The notes below the pieces were generated by a model. It saw only the letters and a list, made by a program, of their open reading frames with translations. It was not told where the DNA came from and ran no database searches. Of a stretch of 64,000 bases of DNA, positions 57,444 to 58,157 are shown piece after piece (the first letter of the stretch is position 1; each line of letters starts with the position of its first letter). The position numbers and the translations under genes were made by a program. Origin of the DNA: Oscillospiraceae bacterium (GTDB lineage: Bacteria > Bacillota > Clostridia > Monoglobales > Monoglobaceae); contig SVKC01000003.1 in the NCBI GenBank assembly GCA_015068655.1, positions 1 to 64,000 of the forward strand. Direction: 5' to 3'.

Positions 57444-57472
57444 TTGCAGAATTTTATTTGATGTGTTATACT
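57444..57472 (+). promoter_or_regulatory. Putative sigma-A promoter TTGCAG-17-TATACT
   Basis: Good -10 and 17-nt spacer; about 20 nt upstream of the truncated tRNA half. Confidence 0.5.
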
Positions 57473-57482
57473 CTTTTAGTAG

Positions 57483-57515
57483 TAAATATATGCCTACATA
57501 GTTAAATGGATATAA
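57483..57515 (+). repeat. Duplicated 5' part of tRNA-Arg (33-nt exact direct repeat of 57657-57689)
   Basis: TAAATATATGCCTACATAGTTAAATGGATATAA at both positions; covers upstream 9 nt and tRNA nucleotides 1-24. Confidence 0.93.
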
Positions 57516-57590
57516 GAACCGCACGCCGTTAGCAAAATCGAAGATTTTGACGGCTGAGCGAACCTTGTTATTCGCTGACGCTCATAATAT

Positions 57591-57621
57591 ACAAGCCCTT
57601 TTATCTTAGGAGGGGCTTGTT
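57591..57621 (+). repeat. Hairpin ACAAGCCC...GGGCTTGT whose 3' arm is an inverted copy of the tRNA-Arg anticodon arm
   Basis: 57605-57621 CTTAGGAGGGGCTTGTT is the reverse complement of AACAAGCCCCTCCTAAG inside the tRNA. Confidence 0.85.
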
Positions 57622-57665
57622 CAAAAACGATATTATAGTCTGATAGCTGTATAAATTAAATATAT

Positions 57666-57740
57666 GCCTACATAGTTAAATGGATATAACAAGCCCCTCC
57701 TAAGGGCTAGTTGTAGGTTCGATTCCTACTGTGGGTGCCA
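57666..57740 (+). tRNA. tRNA-Arg(CCT)
   Basis: GCCTACATAGTTAAATGGATATAACAAGCCCCTCCTAAGGGCTAGTTGTAGGTTCGATTCCTACTGTGGGTGCCA; anticodon loop CTCCTAA; encoded CCA. Confidence 0.93.
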
Positions 57741-57782
57741 GAAAAAAAGACATTTTTCATTATTGAAAAATGTCTTTTTTTC
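57741..57782 (+). terminator. Terminator after tRNA-Arg
   Basis: GAAAAAAAGACATTTTTCATTATTGAAAAATGTCTTTTTTTC directly abuts CCA. Confidence 0.85.
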
Positions 57783-57785
57783 AAC

Positions 57786-57995
57786 GATATAAATTCCTGA
57801 CGGAATTTGCGATATACCTTCGGTACGATATATCCTGACGGATGCAATATGTTGCCTTACGGCAACGAGATTAAGGAATTTATATCATATCGCAACCGAA
57901 TGAAATGAGGTTATATCGAATTTGCGAAGCGAATATATCGCACGAGCGTGAGCGAGTATATCGCCAATAAAACTAAAATATCTTTATGGTTCTGC
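57786..57995 (+). repeat. Dispersed GATATA/hairpin repeat, copy 3 (core 57786-57886 plus extension)
   Basis: Near-identical to 43-252 including the extension through CTTTATGGTTC. Confidence 0.92.
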
Positions 57996-58002
57996 GTTCT
58001 TA

Positions 58003-58043
58003 GAAAAAAGACATTTTTCAATAATGAAAAATGTCTTTTTTTC
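58003..58043 (+). repeat. Second copy of the tRNA-Arg terminator hairpin, inverted
   Basis: Loop AATAAT here versus ATTATT at 57741-57782; otherwise same stem. Confidence 0.85.
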
Positions 58044-58046
58044 AAC

Positions 58047-58145
58047 GATATAAATTCCTGACGGAATTTGCGATATACCTTCGGTACGATATATCCTGAC
58101 GGATGCGATATGTTGCCTTACGGCAACGAGATTAAGGAATTTATA
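58047..58145 (+). repeat. Dispersed GATATA/hairpin repeat, copy 4 (core only, 3' end truncated)
   Basis: GATATAAATTCCTGACGGAATTTGCGATATACC...ATTAAGGAATTTATA. Confidence 0.92.
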
Positions 58146-58157
58146 ACATTTTGAGTT

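Follow-up and report, generated by a model that had tools for sequence, protein, structure and literature searches.

A tRNA-Arg(CCT) gene of the Monoglobaceae with a duplicated 5′ half and a captured hairpin repeat: a probable recent rearrangement

The sole tRNA-Arg(CCT) gene detected in an Oscillospiraceae bacterium of the family Monoglobaceae has probably undergone a recent, species-specific rearrangement, in which a dispersed hairpin-repeat module was captured, the 5′ half of the tRNA was duplicated and the gene was kept functional. The event was probably a recent accident of DNA, and probably neutral, rather than a conserved switch, because relatives lack the insertion. The gene lies in a stretch of 64,000 nucleotides (contig SVKC01000003.1, positions 1 to 64,000; hereafter the window), which carries lepA, hemW, tRNA-Arg(CCT), and Nif3-like and TrmK-like genes; the protein-coding names were read by eye from the open reading frames and are presumptive. 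The species is represented by one metagenome-assembled genome (70 contigs, 82% complete), on which the number and order of the events and any statement on strain-level conservation rest. The features of the locus are collected in Table 1.

Table 1. Features of the tRNA-Arg(CCT) locus, in positions of the window
Feature	Position	Strand	Remarks
Native tRNA promoter, TTGCAG-17-TATACT, with extended -10 (TGT-TATACT)	57444-57472	+	Same architecture in G001, G002 and G007
Repeat copy 1: 9 nt of leader and tRNA nt 1-24, truncated	57483-57515	+	33/33 identical to 57657-57689
Dispersed hairpin-repeat module	57509-57590 (right end approximate)	+	R1, 77.6 bits, E 3e-18 (rough); R2, 67.9 bits over 57509-57601; blastn
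Family hairpin, GCCGT-tag-CAAAATC-gaa-GATTTTG-ACGGC	57525-57554	+	As in the initial annotation
Second small hairpin of the module	about 57567-57588	+	
Palindrome, ACAAGCCC-TTTTATCTTAGGAG-GGGCTTGT	57591-57620	+	Arms 57591-57598 and 57613-57620; left arm weakly similar to forward tRNA sequence as far as nt 31, right arm inverted
Exact inverted copy (17 nt) of the anticodon arm, with inverted anticodon loop	57605-57621	+	Complementary to 57688-57704
Insert tail	57622-57656	+	Ends in TATAAA, 10 nt 5′ of the intact tRNA
Repeat copy 2: leader and 5′ part of the intact tRNA	57657-57689	+	33/33 identical to copy 1
Intact tRNA-Arg(CCT)	57666-57740	+	ARAGORN; sole copy found in the assembly
tRNA terminator: perfect 19-bp hairpin and T-run, bidirectional in form	57741-57782	+	

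The initial annotation, which was made from the letters of the DNA, had described an exact 33-nt direct repeat and a perfect 17-nt complement of the anticodon arm, and both are exact and lie where it placed them. The direct repeat extends to 36 nt if one mismatch is admitted. When the upstream region was dinucleotide-shuffled 2000 times, no direct match to the tRNA stretch was longer than 13 nt (33 observed) and no inverted match was longer than 12 nt (17 observed); the direct repeat and the inverted copy of the anticodon arm are far beyond chance. Part of the 17-nt complement is inherent in the gene, because the anticodon stem is self-complementary (AGCCC/GGGCT) and the tRNA sequences GGGCTAGTT and GGGCTTGTT are one base apart. 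What is surprising is that the loop of the anticodon arm is inverted (CTCCTAAG to CTTAGGAG) and its stem perfected. The intact tRNA downstream of these features is identical to that of the congener G007 over 75 of 75 nt, and a search of the genome's own assembly (82% complete) found no second full copy.

The state of the locus before the insertion can be seen in relatives. The genus set comprised nine genomes, all incomplete, and besides the window's own genome three of them matched tRNA-Arg(CCT) at this locus (G001, G002 and G007). In all three, the order is hemW, a TTGCAn-17-TATACT promoter with an extended -10 (TGn), a leader of about 20 nt and the tRNA, with no insert. Thus, the promoter-like sequence that had been pointed out upstream of the truncated half, and which has the sequence and position then described, is the native promoter of the tRNA gene. 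It also follows that copy 1, the distance of which to the promoter matches that in the congeners, occupies the ancestral position of the tRNA, and that 174 nt have been added in this species between the promoter and the intact tRNA. The 9-nt leader within the repeat differs among the congeners and is not conserved even inside the genus, so copy 2 was derived from the genome's own sequence, not from an incoming element or an att site. In 28 further genomes of the order (one per species), the most central tRNA of each tRNA-Arg locus was tested for the duplicated 5′ half and the inverted arm, and none had either. The initial annotation had suggested looking for the arrangement in sister strains, and had named its absence from all relatives as the sign of a recent neutral rearrangement; within the limits set by one genome per species, absence is what the congener and order loci display. 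A search of genome contigs with the HemW protein returned mostly distant phyla, the best match being just 49% identical.

On sequence similarity, the left half of the insert comes not from the tRNA but from a dispersed hairpin family, of which it is one copy. An insert of about 140 nt containing hairpins had been recognised between the two copies of the repeat, and its hairpin at 57525-57554 and its palindrome were borne out; the refinement is that its left half belongs to this family. Positions 57511-57571 have 81-86% blastn identity to copies in sister genera, with independent matches at E 1e-12. The covariance model R1, which was built from these copies, has the copy in the window as one of its 12 training rows and gives E-values that are rough, as are those of model R2, found the family (matches to 57509-57571) in 16 of the 51 genomes of the order; its weaker matches, e.g. 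in G048, may be the CAAAATC/GATTTTG core alone. With R2, the family was found in 7 of the 9 genus genomes, some of the matches being weak. The copy in the window has the covarying hairpin and the flanks TAA(G/T)AACC...GAAC(A/C)TT by which members are recognised, and carries a compensatory difference in its stem (GCCGT/ACGGC for GGCGT/ACGCC). In 31 distinct aligned copies, in an alignment that was fitted to the model and hence leans towards it, 11 of the 15 pairs have changed on both sides and 96.8% of the cells are paired, falling to 49% or less when the hairpin partners are slid by 1-3 columns. A search of Rfam gave no family for the insert, the tRNA being the only feature in the window to reach the gathering score, and none for the repeat at the related loci, where only a tRNA and, elsewhere, a glmS ribozyme were matched. 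No further copy of the insert was found in its own genome, where the copy in the window is single.

The window also contains two direct copies of another sequence (57743-57888 and 58004-58149, 97% identical over 146 nt), which comprise a bidirectional terminator hairpin and a GATATAAATTCC palindromic repeat. Both copies are sub-threshold matches to Gut-1 RNA (RF01706).

Loci of the hairpin family include L105-L118 and L125-L167 (genomes G002, G005, G009-G011 and G033-G036). Copies in the sister genera stand upstream of unrelated genes, which we take by eye to be ftsH, a MarR-like gene, a dihydroorotase-like gene and tRNA-Leu. These units lie directly 3′ of an extended -10 box, TGnTATAATAACC, and can occur in tandem, repeated about every 136 nt; of 22 sister-genus copies, some of which are orthologous and so not independent, 11 have a TTG-type -35 (at least 4 of 6 matches) exactly 17 nt upstream, against 16% at shifted positions. 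The module in the window follows the tRNA sequence GGATATAA, not TGnTATAATAACC, and the native -10 is about 45 nt upstream, so that it does not abut a -10 box. At other loci, the family shows gain, loss and tandem multiplication of its copies: the promoter of ftsH holds one copy in G033 and G036 and three in G035, whereas it has none in G034 and G037. Within the genus of the window, the module forms the centre of a MITE-like element that measures about 250 nt and is bounded by the terminal inverted repeats GTGTCAAGTC/GACTTGACAC (L187, L188 and L193; the same combination is seen at L199, the genomes being G004 and G002), and in G002 three modules with a period of 74 are placed in tandem inside one such element. 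The terminal inverted repeats were sought around 57516-57656 and are absent from the copy in the window. A different intergenic repeat (L014, L111 and L116, in G001 and G003) shares the GGCAAAATCGAAGATTTTGACGG hairpin and has CCCTCC/GGAGGG arms as flanks.

BOX elements have the modular organisation A-Bn-C, which the Monoglobales repeat resembles. Like BOX of Streptococcus pneumoniae and the MITEs Correia, RUP and ERIC (PMC10969869), the Monoglobales family consists of short, dispersed intergenic hairpin repeats, often near promoters, with a central module that can be repeated in tandem (the three units in G002) and with terminal inverted repeats in the congeners. The family has no match in Rfam, and the copy in the window differs from BOX in having the central module alone, inside a tRNA gene and without terminal repeats; the likeness is one of architecture.

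The right half of the insert has a different character. Positions 57587-57598 (ATATACAAGCCC) resemble the tRNA sequence ATATAACAAGCCC minus one base, a resemblance that is statistically not convincing (p 0.05-0.19). There follow TTTTATC, then TTAGGAG, which inverts the anticodon loop CTCCTAA exactly, and then the perfected stem GGGCTTGT. Template-switch mutations are described as leaving hairpin loops fully inverted and stems perfected (PMC8794818), and the segment here, being an exact, locally templated reverse-complement copy of neighbouring sequence beyond all 2000 shuffles, looks like such a mutation. It shares with the published cases the inverted loop and the perfected stem of an existing hairpin gene, and differs in that it does not replace part of the gene but forms an additional copy, carried by an insertion. 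The insert-free parent that a four-point switch would call for is seen in the congeners. For the tail (57622-57656), no homologue was found in the genome itself, in phages or in plasmids. The reading of the tail as a decayed 3′ half of the tRNA has no support (p 0.99). A phage or plasmid origin of the insert was likewise discarded, there being no match, and none in two exact-pattern scans of viral contigs. The -10-like TATAAA that ends the tail is without a clear -35, and was rejected as a new promoter for the intact tRNA; a promoter scan gave no site there, yet it missed the native promoter too and so carries no information.

These observations would fit the following series of steps. In the ancestor, the conserved promoter would have fed one tRNA directly. 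Template switching during replication, either on its own or after a small hairpin element had been inserted, would then have put the 174-nt segment into the region of the D-arm. This segment would consist of the hairpin module, joined through microhomologies, the inverted anticodon arm and a short tail, with the 33-nt leader and 5′ half re-copied last, regenerating an intact tRNA that was still functional. The 5′ edge of the module overlaps the tRNA sequence GGATATAA by microhomology, and the junctions share 4 nt (ATAA and ATAT), so that a short target duplication would be indistinguishable from the ends of the module. This may have been a single event. The suggestion in the initial annotation of a relic of integration or template switching gains support from the empty sites in G001, G002 and G007, the dispersed nature of the left half and the inverted form of the loop. 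Weighing against the rearrangement are the lack of a source for the tail and the unconvincing tRNA origin of ATATACAAGCCC.

A 5′ fragment that precedes an intact tRNA of the same orientation is the configuration of 5′-type tDNA islands, which make up 159 of 3919 islands (PMC4383910). A tyrosine-integrase element may have broken up the tRNA, with the 5′ fragment staying behind at the promoter and an intact tRNA being restored, and may later have been reduced to 141 nt by deletion. What looks like such a case is found in the related genome G038 (L228:376-535), in which a divergent 5′ fragment of tRNA-Arg(CCT) ends after CTCCTAAG, with an intact, divergent tRNA-Arg 42 nt downstream and an ORF beyond; judged from its layout, this is likely a 5′-type integrated element. 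The inverted arm in the window also ends after CTCCTAAG. We nevertheless regard a collapsed island as unlikely. Islander 5′-type islands (PMC4383910) share the displaced fragment and the regenerated tRNA, and differ in having an integrase and at least 2 kb between the two, where this locus has 141 nt with no ORF of that size; the neighbouring ORFs, read by eye, include no recognisable integrase. Furthermore, the block of identity spans a species-specific leader and stops at nt 24, short of the crossover in the anticodon loop, the regenerated copy is identical rather than divergent, and the remainder is largely a dispersed hairpin repeat.

The predicted folding of the transcript bears on a second alternative. 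Transcription from the old promoter would yield an RNA with a structured leader of about 190 nt, and this leader could be an attenuator-like switch, with the anti-arm (57605-57621) either on the tRNA, so that none is made, or in its own 12-bp hairpin, so that the tRNA is made. In silico, the full transcript has a minimum free energy of -76.9 kcal/mol, compared with -66.5 kcal/mol when the native tRNA is enforced (a gap of about 10 kcal/mol). In the former fold, the anticodon arm is bound by the anti-arm, there is competition between the first and the second acceptor half, and the probability of the native acceptor and anticodon stems is about 0. Removal of the anti-arm returns the anticodon stem to 0.95 and the acceptor stem to just 0.05, whereas a transcript starting after 57621 restores both to about 0.95. 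The leader fold has a z-score of -7.0, a value that includes the terminator and the trivially complementary arm, and three segments have mutually exclusive pairing. With the native tRNA enforced, the palindrome holds the anti-arm in a local hairpin of 12 pairs, which would form first during transcription and could shield the leader, so that mature tRNA could still be made.

Against such a switch, an inverted duplication brings this complementarity with it automatically, thermodynamic folding takes no account of co-transcriptional order, modification or RNase P, and no in silico signal of selection was seen. Conservation across relatives with covariation, by which a cis-regulatory leader is known, is wanting here, the structure being absent from all the other tRNA-Arg loci examined in the order. 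The earlier proposal of a leader controlling maturation is thermodynamically plausible and comparatively unsupported. A regulatory role is possible but unsupported, and we hold a switch of this kind to be quite unlikely. That the insertion was since co-opted, its anti-arm alternating between hairpin and nascent tRNA and so gating the sole detected tRNA-Arg(CCU), in a device that would include the repeat hairpin and the 5′-half decoy, is a model we consider very doubtful.

Ordinary transposition of the hairpin element (a MITE) with a 33-bp target-site duplication would be in keeping with a dispersed, mobile-like family, with the terminal inverted repeats of the congener copies and with the direct repeats that flank the insert. 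It is highly improbable: the copy in the window is without those terminal repeats, other copies show no 33-bp target duplication (the repeats flanking the sister-genus copies are -10 sequence only), and the inverted anticodon arm would be left unexplained. A chimeric join of two strain variants in assembly or binning, conceivable for a single-copy arrangement in a fragmented metagenome-assembled genome, is extremely improbable, as the insert matches a bona fide repeat family of the order and the order of hemW, promoter and tRNA on either side is that of the congeners.

The preferred reading, a probable recent rearrangement, makes the locus a snapshot of a single-copy tRNA gene that takes an insertion in its own body and stays intact because its 5′ half is re-copied. 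Such an insertion would accidentally give rise to three-way complementarity of the sort employed by regulatory leaders. The locus also exposes a dispersed, covarying hairpin repeat of the Monoglobales, without a match in Rfam and often adjoining the -10 boxes of promoters. This family may place structured 5′ ends on unrelated transcripts.
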